Assembly: GCA_001512995.1 (NCBI GenBank)
Contig: LFRY01000057.1
Location: forward strand, 19,750-78,182
Source: Acholeplasmatales bacterium DTU067
GTDB lineage: Bacteria; Bacillota_I; Bacilli_A; ML615J-28; CAG-698
Direction of reading: 5' to 3'
DNA: 58,433 bases
This document shows, in pieces, positions 15,002-25,195 of this stretch (positions are counted from its first letter, which is position 1; every line of letters begins with the position of its first letter). A program made the position numbers and the translations under genes. The notes under the pieces are model-generated. The model did not search any database. It had not been told where the DNA came from and saw only the letters and a list, made by a program, of their open reading frames with translations.

Positions 15002-16540
15002 ATGAATGAACACATAGAACTCGGAAAAGAACTGCTAAAAATATTGATAGGTAAGGGTTGCGAGGCCTATATGATAGGGGAGGCCGTTTGTTATTACATT
15101 TTGGGACTCCCCATCAGGGAAGTCGAAATCGCGACCAGCGCCACCGCGGAGATGGTGAAAGGCATTTTCCAGGATTACAGAACCGAGGATGAGAACGGTT
15201 ATGTGCGCCTTTATTATCGCGGCTACGATTTTCTGATCGGCACTTTCAAACGCGTCGATTACCGCGATGACCGCACGCCTTTGAGAATGCACTATTCCAA
15301 AAATCTTCATGATGAGGTCTCCGCCCGCGATTTTACAATCAACTCCATTGCCATGAGCCCTGCTGAAAAATATACCGACATTTACCGGGGTTATGAGGAT
15401 TTACAAAAGAAAAGAATTAAAACAATCGGAAATCCGAAAACTAGGTTTGAAGAAAACCCGCTCCGGATTCTGACCGCATTCCGTTTTGTGAGCGAACTGG
15501 GGTTCAAGATTGAAAAACGGACCTTCAATGCGATGAGGAAAAAAGCGAAACTGCTTTTGAGAATGAGCCCTGAAGCCATGGTTAAGGAAATGAAAAGAAT
15601 CCTTGAAGGGGATCATTTCAAGAAAGCCTTGTTTTTGCTTGTCGATTCGGGAATATATAAAAGAATTCCTGTGTTGAAACATGAATTCAAACGCCTCAGG
15701 AATAAGTACCGACCGGAAACGACAGACATTTTCTTGGGATGCGCGTTTGTAAAAGCGGGGGAGTTCAACGCGGAATGGGGCCAAGCCAGCGAGGACCCCG
15801 CGCGTCTTGCGGAGATTGTGGATCTGGCGCTCGCCAATCCCAAGGGCAATTTCAATTCCGAAGATTTGTTTTTTAAAGGCTTAGACATCTGCCTGGAAGC
15901 CAACCGAATCAACCGCCTGCTGAATAAAAGCAAGAAAAAGGACAAGCAGATTCAGGCTGCCTTTGAAAACCTGCCGATCAAAACGGCAGACGAACTTGCC
16001 TTTTCCAAAAACGACCTAAAATACCTTTTGAAAAGTTATGACGCCTATGATGAAATCATCTATGAAAACATCCTGCGCAAGGTCTTGTTGGGAGAACTTG
16101 CAAACAATTACCAGGAAATCAGAAATTTTGCTTTTGAATCGCTGAAAACCTATTACGGTGAGGCGGTTGCCCAGAATTTGAGTGCGGAGCCGGCACCTGC
16201 GCCCACAGTCGCGGAAGAACCCCCGCAGCAGGATTTCGTGCATGATGCGGCTCCGGAAATCCCCGTTTATCACGATGGTTTTCAGAATCCCGGGTCAGAA
16301 AGTTTGGAAGAGAAGGTCAGAAGATTGGAACTACAGAACCTGGAATTGGAGTTGAACCGCGTCGTCGATAACCTCACCGCCCAAAACATAGAGATTCTTG
16401 CGGAGTTGGGCTATGTGCGAGGCGCGGAAAAAATACTCGTTACCAGGGAATTGAACAGGTTTTACAGGAATCTTCTGACAAGCATCGATCCGAAATATCA
16501 AGCACTAAAAAAATATCAAGAAAGAATTGATTCTAAATGA
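15002..16540 (+). CDS. CCA-adding enzyme/poly(A) polymerase homologue with altered active site
   Basis: Class II tRNA nucleotidyltransferase-like protein, 512 residues. The head domain aligns to the family, but key motifs are changed: GG-VRD reads GEAVCY (26-31), the catalytic DxD reads EVE (40-42, in REVEIAT), the third acid in the EvTTFR strand reads FLIGTFK, RRDFT reads ARDFTINS, and the nucleotide-choosing EDxxR reads ENPLR. The neck region (AFRFVSELGFKIEKRTFNAM) is normal. A C-terminal extension of about 110 residues has a Pro/Ala linker and a coiled coil (EEKVRRLELQNLELELNRV). GGGAG lies 12 bases before the ATG. The stop overlaps the yhaM start (ATGA). Family membership is clear; CCA-adding activity is doubtful. 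Confidence 0.8.
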   Translation: MNEHIELGKELLKILIGKGCEAYMIGEAVCYYILGLPIREVEIATSATAEMVKGIFQDYRTEDENGYVRLYYRGYDFLIGTFKRVDYRDDRTPLRMHYSKNLHDEVSARDFTINSIAMSPAEKYTDIYRGYEDLQKKRIKTIGNPKTRFEENPLRILTAFRFVSELGFKIEKRTFNAMRKKAKLLLRMSPEAMVKEMKRILEGDHFKKALFLLVDSGIYKRIPVLKHEFKRLRNKYRPETTDIFLGCAFVKAGEFNAEWGQASEDPARLAEIVDLALANPKGNFNSEDLFFKGLDICLEANRINRLLNKSKKKDKQIQAAFENLPIKTADELAFSKNDLKYLLKSYDAYDEIIYENILRKVLLGELANNYQEIRNFAFESLKTYYGEAVAQNLSAEPAPAPTVAEEPPQQDFVHDAAPEIPVYHDGFQNPGSESLEEKVRRLELQNLELELNRVVDNLTAQNIEILAELGYVRGAEKILVTRELNRFYRNLLTSIDPKYQALKKYQERIDSK

Positions 16541-17475
16541 GAAAAAAAATCAAAGATTTCAGCCCGTCGGATAAGGCGGTTTTGATTCTTCGCTTATCCG
16601 ACATCCAAATAAGAAAAACGAGCGCCAATGCCGATTATGCGAGCATGCTCGGGTTTGACGGCACGGATTTGATCGAAGTGAAAATTTGGGCCCTGACCGA
16701 TGAAAAACGCGAACTGTTGAAAAACGGGGAGGTATATGAACTCTCCGGCACGATGAAGGATTATCAGGGAAAAATGCAGTTCAACGTTTCCGAACTGAGA
16801 GTTCTTGACGATTCGGAAATCGATAAAAGCCAATTTTTTGAATACGCGAAAATGAGCGAGGAGGAACTGAAGGAAGGAATCGTCGCTTACATCAATAAAA
16901 TCGACAATCAGGTAATCAAAAAACTTGTTTTTGCGACACTCAAGCAATTTTTCCCTGATTTCTTCCGCCATCCCGCGGCCTTGAGCATGCATCACAATTA
17001 TTTCGGCGGGTTGGCCTATCATGTTTATTCGATGCTCGTTTTGGGCGATTCGTTTTTAGAACTCTTTCCCTATCTGAACCGCTCCCTGGTTTACGGGGGC
17101 ATCATTCTCCATGACATCGGGAAAATGGTGGAGCTCTCCGGACCCAAGGGAACCGAATATACGAAAGAAGGAAATCTCCTCGGCAACATCGCCATCGGCT
17201 CGAACATCTTATACAAAACCGCCTGCGATTTGGGACTGGAAAAAACGGACGAATTTTTGTCTCTCCAGCACATCCTCCTCTCCCATCACGGCCTTTTGGA
17301 ATATGGCTCGCCCAAAGAGCCGCTGATTCCGGAAGCGGTCCTGATCCACATCCTTGATTATTCCGATTCGCGGATGGCTGCTTTGGAAAAGGAAGTGACG
17401 ACCACGCTGCCGGGAGAATACACGGAACCGATATTGGCTTTTGGCAGGAAGAGATTCTATAAACCTGATTTCTAG
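16537..17475 (+). CDS. yhaM: 3'-5' exoribonuclease YhaM family
   Basis: Metal-dependent 3'-5' exonuclease acting on RNA and single-stranded DNA. An N-terminal OB-fold domain (DLIEVKIWALTDEKRELLKNGEVYELSG, about 45-75) is followed by an HD domain with HHNYFGGLAYHVYSM, ILHDIGKM, LLSHHGLLEYGSP and HILDYSDSR, the full set of metal ligands for this family. 312 residues, as expected. It is coupled by a 4-base overlap to the CCA-like nucleotidyltransferase, so an RNA 3'-end extending-type fold and a 3'-end trimming enzyme are made from one message. A strong terminator follows. Confidence 0.9.
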   Translation: MRKKIKDFSPSDKAVLILRLSDIQIRKTSANADYASMLGFDGTDLIEVKIWALTDEKRELLKNGEVYELSGTMKDYQGKMQFNVSELRVLDDSEIDKSQFFEYAKMSEEELKEGIVAYINKIDNQVIKKLVFATLKQFFPDFFRHPAALSMHHNYFGGLAYHVYSMLVLGDSFLELFPYLNRSLVYGGIILHDIGKMVELSGPKGTEYTKEGNLLGNIAIGSNILYKTACDLGLEKTDEFLSLQHILLSHHGLLEYGSPKEPLIPEAVLIHILDYSDSRMAALEKEVTTTLPGEYTEPILAFGRKRFYKPDF

Positions 17476-17576: not shown

Positions 17577-18938
17577 TTGGTTCCTCCGGAACTGCCCCAA
17601 TTATTGAACATTGACTTTTTTTTGAAAAAGCCGGAATTGAATATCATTCTTTTGTTGGTGTTCATTATTCTCTTTTTCTTTTCCGCTTTTGTTTCCAAAG
17701 CCGAGGCGGTTTTTTCCAGCGTCAACATCATCAGAATCCGCAGCTTTTTGGAGGAAAGGAAGCGGGGCGCGAAAAAAGCGGTGTATATCGCGGAAAAATA
17801 TGACGTGACCCTGATGACGCTTTTGATTCTGGACATTTTTTTGAAAATCGCTTTGGTCGCCCTTGCGGGGTATTTCCTCTACAACCTCCTCGATAATTTC
17901 TTTCTGGCTTCCTTGTTGGTGATTTTGATCCTTTCTCCGCTCATGCTCATTTTTACGGAAATCATTCCGCGCTCAAAAGGACAAATCACTCCGGAAATGA
18001 AAGCTTTGAAATATTCCGGTTTTCTTTACCTTTTGATTAAGATAATGACTCCAGTCACTTATCTCTACGTTAAACTGAGAAGGGCGATCATCAAGAAACA
18101 TGATCTTGCGGACGGCCCGAAGGTTACAGGAGAAGCGCTCGAATCAATCATTGACGCCATGGAGACGGAAGGGGTTCTTGAAGAAAACGATGCGGAAATG
18201 ATTCAAAACGCGATCTTCCTGAGCGAAACCACCGTATATGACATTATGACTCCCAGAGTCGATGTCGTCGCGGTGGAAATCTCAGCTTCAATCGAAGAAA
18301 TCAAAAACACTTTCTTTGAATACCAGTTTTCACGCATTCCCGTCTACCGCGAAGATAAGGACAACATTGTTGGCATTTTGAGTGAAAAGGATTTTTTCAC
18401 TGCCCTGCTCAAGGGGGAAAAGGTCGAACTTGAAGAACTTCTTTCGGAGCCCTTCTATGTTTCAAAGACGACCAAGGTGAATGATTTGATAAAAGAAATG
18501 CAGAGACTGCAGAAACACTTTGCGATCGTTGTCGACGATTACGGCGGGACGAGCGGAATTGTCACGATGGAAGACGCCTTGGAAGAAATCGTCGGAGAAA
18601 TTTATGACGAATATGACGATGTTGAGGGAGAAGATTTGGTTAAAATTGCCGAGGATAAATACCACGTGAAACCGGAAATGGATCTTGAGGAGCTCTTTGA
18701 GATTCTCGAACTCGGTAATCCTCCGGAAAGCGAATTCTCCAGCGTCGGCGGTTTTGTTTACGGACTCTGCGAAGGCTTGCCCTACGAGGGCATGGAAGTG
18801 ATTTATCGTCATCCCCCGTTTTACGGAGAGAATGAAGAAAGCGAGACCGGTCACATCCTCAAATTCACAGTCTCCAAGGTGGCCAATCGCAGAATCGAAG
18901 ATTTGGTTTTGGAAATCAGCGAAGACAGCGACGAGTAA
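17577..18938 (+). CDS. CNNM/CorC-type transporter (DUF21-CBS-CorC_HlyC)
   Basis: Membrane protein of the CNNM/CorC (hemolysin C-like) family linked to magnesium efflux or homeostasis. Order: DUF21 membrane domain with about four segments (residues 20-185, including FFFSAFVSKAEAVFSS and SPLMLIFTEIIPRSKG), a CBS pair starting at YDIMTPRVDVVAVE and ending near DYGGTSGIVTMEDALEEIVGEIYDE, and a C-terminal CorC_HlyC domain (about 355-440, SSVGGFVYGLCEGLPYEGMEV). The start is TTG at 17577, 7 bases after AGAGGTG; no ATG is near. It is a single-gene unit between its own promoter and terminator. Confidence 0.9.
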   Translation: MVPPELPQLLNIDFFLKKPELNIILLLVFIILFFFSAFVSKAEAVFSSVNIIRIRSFLEERKRGAKKAVYIAEKYDVTLMTLLILDIFLKIALVALAGYFLYNLLDNFFLASLLVILILSPLMLIFTEIIPRSKGQITPEMKALKYSGFLYLLIKIMTPVTYLYVKLRRAIIKKHDLADGPKVTGEALESIIDAMETEGVLEENDAEMIQNAIFLSETTVYDIMTPRVDVVAVEISASIEEIKNTFFEYQFSRIPVYREDKDNIVGILSEKDFFTALLKGEKVELEELLSEPFYVSKTTKVNDLIKEMQRLQKHFAIVVDDYGGTSGIVTMEDALEEIVGEIYDEYDDVEGEDLVKIAEDKYHVKPEMDLEELFEILELGNPPESEFSSVGGFVYGLCEGLPYEGMEVIYRHPPFYGENEESETGHILKFTVSKVANRRIEDLVLEISEDSDE

Positions 18939-19171: not shown

Positions 19172-21850
19172 ATGAATGCGTCTCAAGTAGCAAAAAGGAC
19201 ATTGCCATTGATCATTGTTCTGTTGATAATAATAGGAATTGCTGTTTCCTGCACGATTTTCAATAGGGAGAAAGCCGTCCCGGGCATAAGCAATTTCGAA
19301 GGACTATATTTTGAAGCCAGCGAAGATGGCAGAAAATTTTCAATGACAAATCAAAGCGTATATGAGCAGTTGAAGAACAACTACGGACTCTCAATGCTGA
19401 TAGAAATGATAGACATTGAACTGCTCAAGTCCGGAGACGCGGATTATTACAATGCGGTTACGGAAGAGGAAATCAACGAAGCGATTGAGAAAGACAAATT
19501 CCCTCAGAGCAAATATCCGAAAGGGAAGGACGCGCTTACGGAAGAGGAATTGGAAGAAGCGGAAGAGAGTTTTGCGGAAAGCATGCTCGTGGAACGAGGC
19601 CTGAAAAACGAGGAAGACATTAAAGCCCACTATCGTTTGAAACTGGCCAAGAAGAAGTATGCGGCCGCGCAATTGGAAAAACAGATCGAAGAGCATGTTT
19701 CTGAAAAAGACGAACCATTCTTTTCGGATAAAGAATACGAAACGCAATATAAAGCTGACTACCAGAACGGTTATTGGGCAATCATCGTTCCTTTCAGATC
19801 TGAAGAAGAAGGTTATACGCTCCTAAAGCAACTCGGAATCACCGTTCATGAAAAAGACACATCCGTTTCCGGGGATTTTACAAAATGGGTCAAAGAAGTT
19901 GACGGCGAAGAAGTGGCGCTGACGACTGCCGAAGTCGTCAAGGCTTTCATCGACATGTACAATGCGGTGAATTCTCACAAACTCGAAAATTACCCCGAAG
20001 AAACGCTGACCGTTCTCGAAGACGTCCACTACACCATCAACGAGGACGGAAGATATGTTTTCAATACGACGGTCGAATCCGAGGACGGAGATCAGAGACT
20101 GAATGAATTCTATTACACCTACAAAGAAATCGTTGAGTATAATTCTTCAATTCAGAATTATTTGAAAGTCTCAATGAAGAATTATGCGGATTATGATAAT
20201 GAGGAAATAACCTCCAGCCAAAAATTCTTTACGCCTCAGCTCAGGGCTTATGAGAACAAGGAACTCTTTGTTTTCATGTTGAAACTTGCGGAAGAAGTTG
20301 CTCCCGAGTTGGACGATGTTCGTGACGAAGTATACGATAAACTTATTGAAAAGAAATTGACGGACAGTTTCATCGAAACCGAAATGGCGAAGCTACGCGC
20401 AGAAAAGGGACTTGTGATTTATGATGAGGCTCTGGAGAAAGAATACATCCAGAGAGTCAAGAGCTATGGTGTAGAACACAAGAAAACCAAGGGTGAAAGC
20501 AAGACGCTGGTTGCGAAGGTTGCCGGAAAAGATATCAGTGCCGATGATCTCTTCAATTACATGGACAAGCACTACGGCATGAACCTCGCTCTAGATAGAA
20601 TCAACTATCTCCGCCTCTTAAACAATCCTGATCTGAATACCATTTTCAATTATTATGAAGAAGGTCTTTCCGAAAAAGAAAGAATCCTCGATCCTGAAAG
20701 ATGGCAGGCAATCAAGAACACCGTCAGAGGACTGCGCGACTATTTCCTGAGGAACGGTTATGCGATGTACGGCTATCCTTCCACTTATGGATGGAAAAAC
20801 TTCATCAGGGATTTCTTCGGAGTTCAGGATGTTAATGAAATGAAATACTACGTCCTTTACGGTGAAATCTACTCGGATTACACTGACGACCTCAGTTTGC
20901 TGGCTGATGTCGATGAAGATTCCGAACTCTGGAAAAAGTATAAGGAAAAGATGGAAGAAATGGCCGACGAATATTTCTCCGTGCGCGGTATTCATCTCCT
21001 CATTAGGGTGGAGGACGAAGACGGCGAAATAATCCATCCAGACAACTGGACAAGCTATCAAAGGGAGCTTGCGGAGGAATTGTTTGCGGAAATTTGGAAA
21101 TATTATGATGCGGAACCGGGAACGGCCAAAGAAAAATTTGAGACCTTGGCTGACTTGTTCCTCAAAGCTCCGCGCTTCCTGGCCGGCATCGGGCAGGATG
21201 TAAGCGCCCAACCCGAAGGTTTTGATTATGCTCTCGAAAGCAAGGATTATAAATTTGAGTTTTCGAAATATAAATCTGCAGGCCTCATTCTTGAGTATCA
21301 GGACTTAGGAACAAAAGGACCAGGCGATTTTGTGAAAGAATTTGAGGATGCGGTCAGAGAAATGTGGAAAGCTGACCCGACTTCCGAGATTCCGACTCCC
21401 TATAAGGATCCTGTAACCGGAGAATTTAAGCCCATCATCACCCAATTCGGTTATCATGGCTATGTGAATTTAGGTTCCACGGACATCCCCAAATGGTACT
21501 ATGCAACCGATAAGGAGAAGGTAAACCCGGGAATCATACCGACATTGGAGATGATCAAGACTTACATTGAGGACAGCGAAAGCACGCACTTGCTTGATGA
21601 AAACAAAGAAAAAACAACTGCAGAATTCACAAGCACGATGAAGACGGCTGTCACGACTTATTATTCTTCGCTGTATAAAGAACTTAGCGATTCTAATTAT
21701 GTGACAATTCATTTATATAAGGATTTACAAGGTTTAGATTTTACCTTCAATTCTGAGAACTATGACGAGGCTCAATTCTTGGATTTCGTCCAGGGTAGAA
21801 TCAAATCCTACCAGTCCAATCTGCAATACTTTAAAGCGGAAGAGGAATGA
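19172..21850 (+). CDS. very large PrsA/SurA-like lipoprotein (foldase-like), first copy
   Basis: 892-residue lipoprotein. The signal segment ends in IAVSC with the lipidated cysteine at 27. An N-terminal acidic helical domain follows (about 60-190, rich in TEEEINEAIEK and LTEEELEEAEE), as in SurA/PrsA chaperone arms. Near the C-terminus are pieces resembling a parvulin domain: RGIHLLIRV (compare SHILV), FETLADLF (FEELA), LGTKGPGDFVKEFEDAVREMW (DLG--G-MV-EFEDA) and TQFGYHGYVNL (QFGYHII). This suggests an outside-facing foldase, though PrsA is usually about 290 residues and catalytic residues are not clearly kept. It is homologous to the protein at 22712-25195. The ATG at 19172 has AAGGAG 8 bases upstream; the GTG at 19163 overlaps that site. 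Confidence 0.75.
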   Translation: MNASQVAKRTLPLIIVLLIIIGIAVSCTIFNREKAVPGISNFEGLYFEASEDGRKFSMTNQSVYEQLKNNYGLSMLIEMIDIELLKSGDADYYNAVTEEEINEAIEKDKFPQSKYPKGKDALTEEELEEAEESFAESMLVERGLKNEEDIKAHYRLKLAKKKYAAAQLEKQIEEHVSEKDEPFFSDKEYETQYKADYQNGYWAIIVPFRSEEEGYTLLKQLGITVHEKDTSVSGDFTKWVKEVDGEEVALTTAEVVKAFIDMYNAVNSHKLENYPEETLTVLEDVHYTINEDGRYVFNTTVESEDGDQRLNEFYYTYKEIVEYNSSIQNYLKVSMKNYADYDNEEITSSQKFFTPQLRAYENKELFVFMLKLAEEVAPELDDVRDEVYDKLIEKKLTDSFIETEMAKLRAEKGLVIYDEALEKEYIQRVKSYGVEHKKTKGESKTLVAKVAGKDISADDLFNYMDKHYGMNLALDRINYLRLLNNPDLNTIFNYYEEGLSEKERILDPERWQAIKNTVRGLRDYFLRNGYAMYGYPSTYGWKNFIRDFFGVQDVNEMKYYVLYGEIYSDYTDDLSLLADVDEDSELWKKYKEKMEEMADEYFSVRGIHLLIRVEDEDGEIIHPDNWTSYQRELAEELFAEIWKYYDAEPGTAKEKFETLADLFLKAPRFLAGIGQDVSAQPEGFDYALESKDYKFEFSKYKSAGLILEYQDLGTKGPGDFVKEFEDAVREMWKADPTSEIPTPYKDPVTGEFKPIITQFGYHGYVNLGSTDIPKWYYATDKEKVNPGIIPTLEMIKTYIEDSESTHLLDENKEKTTAEFTSTMKTAVTTYYSSLYKELSDSNYVTIHLYKDLQGLDFTFNSENYDEAQFLDFVQGRIKSYQSNLQYFKAEEE

Positions 21851-21855
21851 AATTT

Positions 21856-21883
21856 AGGCCTTGAAACCTCAAGGCCTTTCTTA
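21856..21883 (+). terminator. intrinsic terminator between the lipoprotein and walJ
   Basis: AGGCCTTG (21856-21863), loop, CAAGGCCT (21870-21877), then TTCTT. The U-tail is short, so partial read-through into walJ is likely, since walJ has no clear promoter of its own. Confidence 0.65.
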
Positions 21884-21906
21884 AAAGAAAGAACGAGAGG
21901 AGAAAT

Positions 21907-22683
21907 ATGGAGTTTTGCGTTATTGCCAGCGGTTCGGGAGGGAACATGACTTTTATCAGGAGCGAGCATGCGAAAATCCTTTTGGATGCCGGCATTTCCC
22001 TTCCCGAGGCCAAGAGGCGTACCGCCGAGCACGGAATTGATCTCGACGACATTGATGCCGTCCTGATCACCCATGAGCACGGCGATCATGTTCGCTTTCT
22101 TCCCACAATCTTGAAGCGGACGAACGCGACTCTTTACATCAATCGTTTTTCTTTTGATGCGCTTCCGGAAACCATCAAAATCAAATTGATTGCTCATCCG
22201 ATCAAATTCATCGAGGAAAACAAAAGATATCGAATCCAGGATCTTCATTTCCTGACTCTGAAACTTGCTCATGATAGCGCCAACAATTTCGGCTTTGTTT
22301 TCATGGCTTCCGGAAAAAGGCTGGCATACATTACCGACACCGGCTTTTTCCCGATCCATTATCTCGAGATTTTGAAGCAGGTGGATGCGCTCATCATTGA
22401 AGCAAATCATGATGTGCAAATGCTTATCGAAAGCGAAAGAAGCTGGAATTTGAAAGAGCGAATCTTATCACCCACCGGCCACATGTCGAATCGGATTTGC
22501 GTTCAGGTTTTGGAAGCGGTGCTGAATGGCAGGCAGACCCACATCGTTCTTGCCCACATCAGCAGGGAATGCAATCATCCTGACCTGATAGAACAGGACA
22601 TCATCCAGGTCATCAGAAAAAAATATGAAGGCGAAATTTCAGTGGCCTCGCAGGAAGAAGCTTCACCGCTTTTTAAAATCTAA
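21907..22683 (+). CDS. walJ: metallo-beta-lactamase fold hydrolase WalJ/YycJ
   Basis: YycJ/WalJ-type MBL-fold hydrolase. In many Firmicutes it is encoded with the WalRK cell-wall regulators and is proposed to be a 5'-3' exonuclease affecting replication or mismatch repair. It opens with MEFCVIASGSGGN, has the metal motif THEHGDH (about 56-62), LAHDSANNFGF, YITDTG, EANHD and SPTGHMSN, the last typical of YycJ. 258 residues, full length. AGGAG serves as SD. It sits between two paralogous lipoproteins rather than in a walRK operon. Confidence 0.9.
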   Translation: MEFCVIASGSGGNMTFIRSEHAKILLDAGISLPEAKRRTAEHGIDLDDIDAVLITHEHGDHVRFLPTILKRTNATLYINRFSFDALPETIKIKLIAHPIKFIEENKRYRIQDLHFLTLKLAHDSANNFGFVFMASGKRLAYITDTGFFPIHYLEILKQVDALIIEANHDVQMLIESERSWNLKERILSPTGHMSNRICVQVLEAVLNGRQTHIVLAHISRECNHPDLIEQDIIQVIRKKYEGEISVASQEEASPLFKI

Positions 22684-22711
22684 ATTCCTTATAGGTTAAA
22701 AGGAGAACAAC

Positions 22712-25195
22712 ATGAAGAAAACATTATTGGTTTTAATGACTGTATTCGCTTTTGCAGTTTTTGTAGGTTGTAAAAGTGAAAAGTACCCGCAAATTTCGGA
22801 ATCGAACGAACTATATTTTTCAGCCAAAGAAGGAGAATATACTTATACCCTCACCAATGGAGAAGCATACGAAGAAATGAAAACCAAAGTCGGCTTGAAT
22901 CTCTTGCTCGATACGATTGACAGGGATCTTCTCCAATTTGTGAAAAGAAATGGCAAGAGTTATTGGGATTCGGTGACGGAAGAAGAAATTACGGAAAAAA
23001 TTGAGGAAGAAATTTTTCCGAGCGGAACCGACAATCTTACCGCTGATGAAATCGAAAAAGCACGTGAAGAGTTTTTCGATAAAATGTTCATCCAGTACGG
23101 TTTCAATACCGAAGATGAAGTTCGTGATTATTATCGCCTGACGCTTGCGAAGAGACTGTATGCGAGCGACCGCATTTTCGAACCCGAAGAAGAAGAGGGG
23201 GAGGAAGCAGGCGAGAAAAAAGATGATTTTTCGGAAGAAGAATATCAAAATTATTATAAGAATAATTATAAAAAAGGCTATTATGCACTCATCGTTGCAT
23301 ATGAAACTCCCAAACTTGTCCAACAGGCTTTGGAAAGCCTGAACGTCAGAATCGATAGAGGCATTTGGAGCTGGATTGATGGCAATCAGCTTTCCGAGTG
23401 GGAGATTGTTGAAACATTAATCGCTTTGTATAACAGCGCCAACTCCCATAAGTTGGACAATTATCCCGAAGCGACTCTGATATTGAATGAGGACACGGAG
23501 TACACTATTTCCGGAGACAAAATCAATTTCGTTTTGGAAAATATCAAAGACGAGCTCTTCTATACCCATAACGAGATTTACAGCTATGATTCCGTGCTTC
23601 AAAAACAGCTTCAGGACAATCTTGAAAGTTACGGGGAAGGCAGCAATTTCTATCTGAGAAATCCTTTAAGCAACGCGACCGGAAGCAGGCATTATTTGAT
23701 GATGAAGATTGCGGAAGAAGATGTTCCAGCATTTGAAGATGTAAAAGAGGAAATCAAAGAAAAACTGATTTCCGGCCGCCTCTCTTCCACATTCATATCC
23801 AAGAAGATTGCGCAATTACGAAGAGAGCATAATCTTGTCATCTACGATGATTTTCTTGAGGAAAGGTATTCCGAACAAGCCAAAGGTTTGGATGTGGAAT
23901 ATAAGGAAACGAAGAAGCTCAACGGGAATTTGGTCGCAAAAACTGATGTGAGTGAATACAGCGCCGACGAACTTTTTGAAATCATGAGCGAAGGTTACGG
24001 GCTCACTTTGGCTGCCTCGAAAATTGAGTATCTGAGATTGCTTTACAATCCGAAATACAATGATATTTATTCCATGGACAAAAGCCTGAAAGAATCTGAG
24101 CGGATCATTAAGGGCAAGGAGGATGAATATCAGGCAATCAAAAACGAAATCGAAGACGAAAAGGCGGCTTTTGAGGCCGGAGAATACAAGGACTATGGTT
24201 ACCCCGCGAAGATGGGCTGGAAGAATTTCATCAAGGTCCGTTACGGAGTGGCGACCGAAGAAGATGTTTTCTACCTCCTTCTCTTTAACCGCGTCAAGGA
24301 CAATTATGCGAAAAGCTTAGGCAAGATCACAGCTGCTGATTCGGAGCTTGCTGATTTTTACCTCAGGCAGATGCAAAAACAAGTTGATGACTATTTTAAA
24401 GCGAGGGGTATCCAACTGGTGATCGAAGTGCTCGACGAGAAAGGGAAGGCCAAAGATCCGGAAAAATGGAATGCTACTCAGAATGAGTATGCCAAGCACT
24501 TCTATAAGGACGTTCTTGACTTATTGGCCGCCGAACTTAAGGAAAACGAGACCCATGAAAAGAGATTGCATGAGCTCGTCACGGCTTACAAGAAAGCACC
24601 GCGATTCCTGGCAGGACTTCCCCAGGATAAAGACTCACAGCCCCTCGATGCCAGCCAATACCTGTATGAGGGCATTGAAATTTCCAAATATAAAACGGCC
24701 GGCTTGAACATCAGATTCTCCGATCTCGGCACATTCACCAACGGAAGCAAAGCCAAAGCTTTGAACGATGCTGCCAAAGAAATTTGGGACAAGGATCCTG
24801 ACAGCAAAGAAACTGTGATTTACGGTCTCGGTGAAGAGGAGATCCCCTACATCATCACAAGCGAAGGGTTCCATGTTTACATCAATCTGGAAACGATGCC
24901 CTTGAGCGAATGGGAAACAGGGAAAGTTTTGCCGACGATTGAACAAATCATGACCTATGAGAAGAGTTCTTCCGATTCGAGTCTGACTACCAAAATCAAG
25001 ACGGCAATCACCACTTATTATAAGCCCATCCATGACGAACTCACCGGAAGTTACAATGTTGCAGCAACATTGTATGAAGGCCTCAAGACTTTGGAAGTTG
25101 AGTTTGGACACGACCATTTCACGGCAACCGATTTTACCCGCTATCTGGATTTGCAGATAGCAAGCAATCGGGAGCGCCTGAAATACACCGATTGA
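22712..25195 (+). CDS. very large PrsA/SurA-like lipoprotein, second copy
   Basis: 827 residues. The lipobox ends FVGC with cysteine 20. It aligns along its length with the protein at 19172-21850: ELYFSAKEGEYTYTLTNGEAYEEMK, SVTEEEITEKIEEEIFP and RDYYRLTLAKRLYAS correspond to LYFEASEDGRKFSMTNQ, AVTEEEINEAIEKDKFP and KAHYRLKLAKKKYAA. The C-terminal parvulin-like pieces are RGIQLVIEVLDEKGK, KAPRFLAGLPQD and ITSEGFHVYINL, but the QFGYH motif has become SEGFH, so it is further from an active isomerase than its partner. A poly-Glu/Lys linker (EPEEEEGEEAGEKKDD) interrupts the N-terminal region. SD AAAGGAG. It ends at a strong terminator. Confidence 0.75.
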   Translation: MKKTLLVLMTVFAFAVFVGCKSEKYPQISESNELYFSAKEGEYTYTLTNGEAYEEMKTKVGLNLLLDTIDRDLLQFVKRNGKSYWDSVTEEEITEKIEEEIFPSGTDNLTADEIEKAREEFFDKMFIQYGFNTEDEVRDYYRLTLAKRLYASDRIFEPEEEEGEEAGEKKDDFSEEEYQNYYKNNYKKGYYALIVAYETPKLVQQALESLNVRIDRGIWSWIDGNQLSEWEIVETLIALYNSANSHKLDNYPEATLILNEDTEYTISGDKINFVLENIKDELFYTHNEIYSYDSVLQKQLQDNLESYGEGSNFYLRNPLSNATGSRHYLMMKIAEEDVPAFEDVKEEIKEKLISGRLSSTFISKKIAQLRREHNLVIYDDFLEERYSEQAKGLDVEYKETKKLNGNLVAKTDVSEYSADELFEIMSEGYGLTLAASKIEYLRLLYNPKYNDIYSMDKSLKESERIIKGKEDEYQAIKNEIEDEKAAFEAGEYKDYGYPAKMGWKNFIKVRYGVATEEDVFYLLLFNRVKDNYAKSLGKITAADSELADFYLRQMQKQVDDYFKARGIQLVIEVLDEKGKAKDPEKWNATQNEYAKHFYKDVLDLLAAELKENETHEKRLHELVTAYKKAPRFLAGLPQDKDSQPLDASQYLYEGIEISKYKTAGLNIRFSDLGTFTNGSKAKALNDAAKEIWDKDPDSKETVIYGLGEEEIPYIITSEGFHVYINLETMPLSEWETGKVLPTIEQIMTYEKSSSDSSLTTKIKTAITTYYKPIHDELTGSYNVAATLYEGLKTLEVEFGHDHFTATDFTRYLDLQIASNRERLKYTD

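Follow-up and report, generated by a model that had tools for sequence, protein, structure and literature searches.

Paired giant PrsA-type proteins with two PrsA units per chain in an Acholeplasmatales genome

Genes at the Locus

The window (the whole stretch of DNA analyzed, 58,433 nucleotides) belongs to the genome of Acholeplasmatales bacterium DTU067. It contains two long open reading frames, LPP1 (copy one, 892 aa, with an AAGGAG-like ribosome site immediately 5') and LPP2 (copy two, 827 aa), with a metallo-beta-lactamase gene between them that we take to be walJ, the name used in the earlier note. The arrangement described in that note, giant proteins flanking walJ, is indeed present, as are all the parvulin-like peptides that it quoted. 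The features of the locus are listed below by position in the window.

16537-17475, + strand: YhaM-like protein with OB fold and HD domain (conserved prsA neighbour)
19172-21850, + strand: LPP1, copy one, predicted two-unit PrsA-type foldase, 892 residues (ORF, pairwise alignment, profile-profile comparison)
19187-19252, + strand: LPP1 N-terminal hydrophobic anchor, residues 6-27, final Cys unconserved (model, family alignment, lipobox patterns)
19304-19759, + strand: LPP1 unit 1 N-domain, beta-hairpin and helices, residues 45-196 (model, profile, VIA)
19769-20296, + strand: LPP1 unit 1 parvulin fold lacking both active-site His, residues 200-375 (VIA, sequence)
20309-20461, + strand: LPP1 unit 1 PrsA-type C-terminal helices, residues 380-430 (HMM, profile, VIA)
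20507-20974, + strand: LPP1 unit 2 N-domain, beta-hairpin and helices, residues 446-601 (models, profile)
20987-21469, + strand: LPP1 unit 2 parvulin, residues 606-766, with H608 (20993) and H762 (21455) (VIA, models, alignment)
21539-21838, + strand: LPP1 unit 2 C-terminal helices, residues 790-889 (models, VIA)
21855-21877, + strand: stem-loop at the LPP1-walJ junction (folding)
21907-22683, + strand: walJ/yycJ-like metallo-beta-lactamase-fold hydrolase, single copy (ORF, domain search, neighbourhood)
22712-25195, + strand: LPP2, copy two, two-unit PrsA-type paralogue, 827 residues, lipobox-type N-terminus (ORF, alignment, lipobox pattern)
22811-23884, + strand: LPP2 unit 1, residues 34-391 (profile, alignment)
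23930-25192, + strand: LPP2 unit 2, residues 407-827, with the parvulin at 566-725, Q568 in place of H608 and H721 retained (profile, alignment)

Aligned over 894 columns, LPP1 and LPP2 share 35% identity (BLASTP E 9e-137). The homology runs end to end, beyond the N-domains to which it had been assigned, so that the earlier description was right as to homology and too narrow as to its extent. A paralogue count in the window genome (1.47 Mb in 91 contigs, about 90% complete) returned these two giant homologues, with no others found. Among named relatives, a protein of an 'Acholeplasmataceae bacterium' MAG (L003) is 67% identical and one of 'Tenericutes bacterium ADurb.BinA124' (L004) is 41% identical. 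The window genome also encodes two PF00905 transpeptidases of the penicillin-binding type and a lipoprotein signal peptidase, from which it appears that the organism probably makes a cell wall and lipoproteins.

Two PrsA Units per Chain

The giant-family alignment was split near LPP1 residue 437 into unit 1 and unit 2 profiles. It comprised 42 rows, excluding two f1 copies cut by contig ends (L059, L061) and a 615-aa match on contig C3 of G019. The reference profile was made of 18 ordinary-length PrsA proteins of the class. By hhalign, both units matched this profile with nearly the whole of PrsA covered, unit 1 with a probability of 98.3 (E 2.5e-14) and unit 2 with 98.4 (E 9.8e-15), and all controls (seven unrelated families, two reversed and 16 column-shuffled profiles) gave E values of 0.04 or worse. 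The LPP2 rows alone also matched PrsA, with E 1.2e-11 for unit 1 and, in the N-domain part only, E 2.2e-9 for unit 2. The mutual resemblance of unit 1 and unit 2 is weak (E 0.0013), and small PrsA subsets weaken some of the unit matches, f14 alone giving E 0.009 for unit 1 and E 0.00033 for unit 2.

A SurA/PrsA-type N-domain starting with a hairpin and helix was found in both units by profile, model and VIA. As for the C-terminal helices of the NC-domain, HMM positions 340-432 aligned to the PrsA C-terminus at 231-323 (L116), and the VIA matches reached 430 and 440. A single PrsA unit of about 290-350 residues, a length that is typical and not defining, is thus not the layout of this family; there are two units, in the order N-P-C-N-P-C.

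The earlier note had seen an expanded extracytoplasmic foldase family with parvulin-like pieces at the C-terminus. In that picture, a single PrsA had its N-domain enlarged by unrelated helices and kept one parvulin. The PrsA-type assignment, borne out by profile and structure, and the parvulin near the C-terminus both stand, but the N-terminal half is also a complete PrsA unit. The size of LPP1 and LPP2 comes from an internal tandem duplication of the whole PrsA and not from an enlarged N-domain. An enlarged single PrsA would have parallels in the long proteins of families f7 and f18, where one unit is apparently interrupted by an insert; unit 1, however, matches whole PrsA in profile and structure, including the parvulin-fold centre and the C-helices, which makes this explanation very improbable.

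As a separate observation, the PrsA proteins of f7 and f18 (L099-L111, L137, L138) measure 565-753 aa and apparently consist of one PrsA unit with a long insert after the start of the parvulin, another route to a giant PrsA.

Standard domain searches did not recognize the giant proteins. Pfam and NCBIfam searches with LPP1 and LPP2 gave no match above the cut-off, with sub-threshold chance matches or none. No match above the cut-off was obtained either in a PDB sequence search with LPP1, and the giant-family profile found no chain among PDB sequences at E 10 or less. An NCBIfam scan of all 42 members gave sub-threshold PpiC matches in four (best 0.0003) and PrsA matches in two (best 0.00044). 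Since a repeat scan of 10 of the 42 members, picked by eye, returned a weak PrsA match alone (0.53), these sub-threshold matches carry no weight.

The connection is made by family f8 (L112-L115, L135), five proteins of 751-786 aa that lie above the Pfam Rotamase cut-off. The f8 family aligns to PrsA twice, at columns 351-728 (E 2.5e-33) and 34-345 (E 1.8e-15), and its proteins match the giant-family HMM with E values between 2e-34 and 2e-29; none of the decoys fell below E 1. By sequence, f8 is a link between ordinary PrsA and the giant family, with a plain two-unit layout. Taken as a whole, there is strong evidence that the giant family is derived from PrsA.

Predicted Fold

Structure models were built for LPP1, full-length (pLDDT 72.8) and unit 2 alone (pLDDT 80.5), from six input sequences each. 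The earlier note had staked its reading on a parvulin or SurA-like fold appearing in such predictions, and both parvulin and PrsA folds were found. In the full-length model, residues 40-430 matched Listeria PrsA1 5htf by VIA (Z 11.3, rmsd 8.0 over 247) and 5tvl (Z 10.5, rmsd 5.8 over 249), and residues 594-768 matched the isomerase domain of Pin1 (Z 6.6, rmsd 5.0 over 107). The unit 1 parvulin was matched by VIA to 3rfw at 198-377 (rmsd 2.8 over 89) and to 6xd8 at 197-375 (rmsd 3.0 over 86). In the unit 2 model, residues 8-440 matched PrsA of B. cereus (6vj6; Z 9.8, rmsd 10.8 over 250). Two parvulin domains were matched by its region of about 163-340, 3gpk with Z 8.2 (rmsd 2.6 over 103) and 6xd8 with Z 7.8 (rmsd 2.1 over 88). 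In the model, a hairpin-helix opens both units, with strands at 45-51/54-59 and 446-450/453-456.

The rmsd of the whole-PrsA VIA matches is high, about 6-18 A, because the domains are differently oriented in the LPP1 models, and Z scores of 8-11 are moderate for partly helical folds; the relative domain orientation in the models therefore carries no weight. Two Foldseek searches gave just 2 and 3 matches at E <= 0.001, and the top rows in both were PrsA/parvulin-type foldases.

Among the PrsA/SurA matches of the LPP1 model there was a weak one to Mpn444 (9gn0; Z 5.0, rmsd 9.2 over 266), an essential lipoprotein of Mycoplasma pneumoniae. On this modelled resemblance, mycoplasma lipoproteins may be linked to PrsA.

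Parvulin Active Sites

Parvulins have a conserved His pair, and the S. aureus PrsA paper that describes it states that the His is not strictly essential for the isomerase activity of Pin1 (PMC2678132). Since it is dispensable there, activity cannot be read from these residues, and where a loss of activity is proposed below, we infer it. Aligned to PrsA, the pair corresponds to H608 and H762 in LPP1 unit 2, both present. The unit 1 parvulin of LPP1 has no His at either position (sequence NGYWAIIV and LFVFMLKL). In LPP2 the pair is incomplete, with Q568 replacing the first His and H721 retained, and QFGYH has become SEGFH.

The drift of copy two from the QFGYH core, as previously proposed, is thus real at these residues, but the LPP2 parvulin is no less conserved than that of LPP1. 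Decay of the second LPP2 parvulin was considered and rejected, the mean identity among the six genomes of the window's clade being 49.2% for LPP2 vs 46.0% for LPP1. Of the 15 genome pairs, 4 had LPP1 as the more alike of the two proteins. For the g9/g14 clade, each of the six regions is less conserved in the second copy.

The His pair was surveyed in 81 aligned proteins, of which one f2 row (G197) was cut short. Outside the LPP2 clade, 26 of the 29 family rows retain both His, as do 8 of 10 f8 rows. The walJ-linked LPP2 copies keep both in 2/6 and the second His in 6/6. The relocated second copies (seven in the His count and six in the region identities, the G014 slot copy being cut) keep both in 0/7 and the second in 2/7. 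The first copies of the sister family f2 have both in 0/15, with Asn for the first His in 15/15 and the second His in 14/15, the remaining one being cut short; in the f2 second copies, both are found in 0/14. By these counts, alteration or loss of the His in a second gene arose in both families, the window's own and f2.

Membrane Anchors

Lipoboxes had been reported in both proteins. LPP2 fits the loose Prosite-type lipobox pattern at its N-terminus, but in LPP1 the presumed lipobox Cys lies at the end of an unbroken transmembrane-like stretch, and neither protein fits the strict Gram-positive pattern. A lipobox in LPP1 is therefore doubtful on its sequence, and an uncleaved transmembrane segment is its most likely anchor. 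Among the 29 family rows outside the LPP2 clade, the loose pattern is found in 14, the strict pattern in 2, and no Cys at the position in 8. The loose pattern fits the walJ-linked LPP2 copies in 6/6, the relocated copies in 5/7, the f2 second copies in 10/14 and the f2 first copies in 0/15. Read from pattern fit, LPP2-type copies would be lipoproteins and copies of the f2-first type transmembrane-anchored.

Distribution and Gene Neighbourhood

Giant homologues were found in 28/28 genomes of the family and 43/43 genomes of the order, with lengths from 794 to 1266 aa where complete; many family genomes have a single copy. The Pfam models PF00639 (Rotamase) and PF13616 (Rotamase_3) were found in 0 of the 43 order genomes and in 8 of 14 control genomes. 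PF00639 gave no match in the window genome and is present in 113/296 genomes of the class. Since the f8 relatives pass the Rotamase cut-off, the missing Pfam score of the giant family is a limit of the models.

One homologue, that of G015 (L060 4205-7426, 1073 aa; member assigned by eye), appears to carry Big_2 Ig-like sequence (E 2.8e-15), the only one of the 42 members to match. In the alignment, this sequence falls within the degenerate unit 1 parvulin region and at the C-terminus.

The gene order in the family is CCA - yhaM - [CNNM] - giant gene - walJ - uvrB - mnmA - recD2. On the upstream side, yhaM lies on the contig of the giant gene in 23/28 family genomes, the others being contig ends or not found, and walJ is downstream in 27/28, the remainder likewise a contig end or not found. 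In 6/28, a giant copy follows walJ. The f2 genomes, 15 in all, have two adjacent giant genes (14 complete pairs and one cut by a contig end), with walJ in the opposite orientation wherever observed. Of 40 parvulin-bearing stretches of 8-15 kb taken from other families of the class, 20 also contained a YhaM homologue. A review places yhaM next to L. monocytogenes prsA2 and S. aureus prsA and near B. subtilis prsA (PMC3921577), and the giant gene resembles the Listeria and Staphylococcus prsA genes in being near yhaM. Because of this shared neighbourhood, the giant gene occupies the prsA place.

In the six genomes of the window's clade, a gene at 17577-18938, presumably for a CNNM/CBS-type membrane protein, stands between yhaM and LPP1; no CNNM gene was found at this position in the other family genomes examined.

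These data bear on the possibility that the giant proteins are surface lipoproteins built on a PrsA scaffold that now serve in binding or adhesion, with no foldase role. The failure of Pfam to recognize a parvulin above its cut-off in 43/43 genomes would agree with it, as would the great variation in paralogue and insert lengths, the Ig-like domains of the G015 protein and the weak Mpn444 match. However, the yhaM neighbourhood is conserved, presence is universal, the His pair persists in 26/29 rows outside the LPP2 clade, and no other parvulin was found for the job of PrsA despite the penicillin-binding-type transpeptidases. An adhesion role is accordingly considered improbable, though less so than an enlarged single PrsA.

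The stem-loop at 21855-21877 is strong, and a stem-loop occurred at the LPP1-walJ junction in all nine family loci examined, which were folded as native sequences only. Several are followed by T runs and promoter-like sequence. Together, these elements suggest a walJ-LPP2 unit that is separate or attenuated.

History of the Gene Pair

The relocated copies found in genera g9 and g14 form a group with LPP2 (bootstrap 96, SH-aLRT 97). A recent local duplication within the window's clade was weakly rejected, as forcing its LPP1 and LPP2 together gave an AU p of 0.033 in a tree covering 31 of the 81 rows. From the grouping and the AU result, the LPP1/LPP2 duplication, within the family, probably predates the split from the genera with the second copy elsewhere.

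The earlier note had concluded that the duplication must predate or include walJ, which is not supported. In the family stretches read walJ is single, and it is therefore outside the duplication; the copy after walJ is limited to 6/28 genomes, and since its clade has copies elsewhere in other genera, the copy moved independently of walJ.

A single ancient duplication for the whole order is unsupported, since the 81-row tree, from which four f12-type family-HMM matches (L126, L190-L192) were left out, divides the f1 copies from the f2 copies (99 SH-aLRT). The same tree shows separate pairs in G010, G018 and G154. It seems that f2, G010 and G018 acquired further pairs of their own, unless gene conversion masks an older event; conversion between neighbours could mimic the separation by family.

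Proposed Function

As a whole, the explanation that we hold with good confidence is that LPP1 and LPP2 are extracytoplasmic PrsA foldases doubled in one chain; a pseudo-dimer arrangement and a division of labour are hypotheses within it. They are likely to be post-translocational foldases, possibly as a single-chain PrsA dimer. Both would be anchored outside the cytoplasmic membrane, LPP2 through a lipid and LPP1 most likely through its uncleaved transmembrane segment. Newly exported chains would be held by the NC helices of both units, and penicillin-binding-type proteins are classic clients of PrsA. Of the two LPP1 parvulins, the second alone, with its His pair, would isomerize proline bonds, the first being a structural or client-binding relic. 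LPP2, with its first active-site His replaced, may be a chaperone-biased partner.

The usual PrsA-type foldase is a homodimer shaped like a bowl, in which a swapped N-terminal hairpin keeps the two chains together. Given that a hairpin-helix starts both units, one giant chain may reproduce the PrsA dimer as an asymmetric single-chain pseudo-dimer. In the E. faecium PpiC paper, the two chains of the dimer exchange their starting hairpin-helix (PMC12524980), and the units of LPP1 start alike in the model.

That PrsA and PpiC both dimerize through swapped hairpins (PMC12524980) can also be read differently. Two-unit chains might still form homodimers or LPP1-LPP2 heterodimers, each chain being half of a four-unit cage, and the fact that two differing giant copies stay adjacent in several lineages fits this. 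But both hairpins are already in one chain in the model, and many family genomes have a single copy. We consider the cage rather unlikely, although clearly a stronger candidate than adhesion.

The pseudo-dimer reading can be set against known foldases. The giant proteins resemble PrsA of Bacillus, Listeria, Staphylococcus and Enterococcus (4wo7, 5htf, 9ibn) in the hairpin-helix N-domain, parvulin, C-helices and predicted extramembrane site. They differ from ordinary PrsA in having two units per chain (827-892 aa vs roughly 320-400 aa in class members), a first parvulin lacking the His pair, and scores below the Pfam cut-offs. Like E. coli SurA, of whose two parvulins only one is active, they combine a chaperone domain with two parvulins per chain; the order in SurA is N-P1-P2-C, unlike the N-P-C-N-P-C of the giant family. 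They share with f8 of the same class (751-786 aa) the two-unit layout, the transmembrane or lipobox type of anchor and, for some f8, a nearby yhaM, whereas the second parvulin of f8 passes the Pfam Rotamase cut-off. As with Listeria PrsA1/PrsA2, there are two paralogues in the genome, but the Listeria proteins are single-unit, and their genes are presumably not adjacent around walJ. No description of a doubled PrsA was found in titles and abstract openings of the open PMC literature.

A broader proposal is that the whole order has exchanged the swapped PrsA homodimer for a covalent asymmetric pseudo-dimer, repeatedly duplicated into catalytic and parvulin-dead chaperone copies. This is tentative, and we lean somewhat against it. 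If true, nature would here have separated the isomerase and holdase functions that ordinary PrsA combines.

The apparent lack of an extracytoplasmic parvulin in 43 genomes is explained, as the protein is present in doubled form and has diverged beyond the reach of the Pfam models. The lineage-wide PrsA variant is real: it is doubled within the chain, has one parvulin degenerate, and is often accompanied by an active-site-altered paralogue. The pseudo-dimer and the division of labour are hypotheses built on it, under which the giant chain would be a naturally fused version of the PrsA dimer, and the paralogues with and without the active-site His may offer a direct test bed for PrsA as an isomerase versus a dimeric client-holding bowl.
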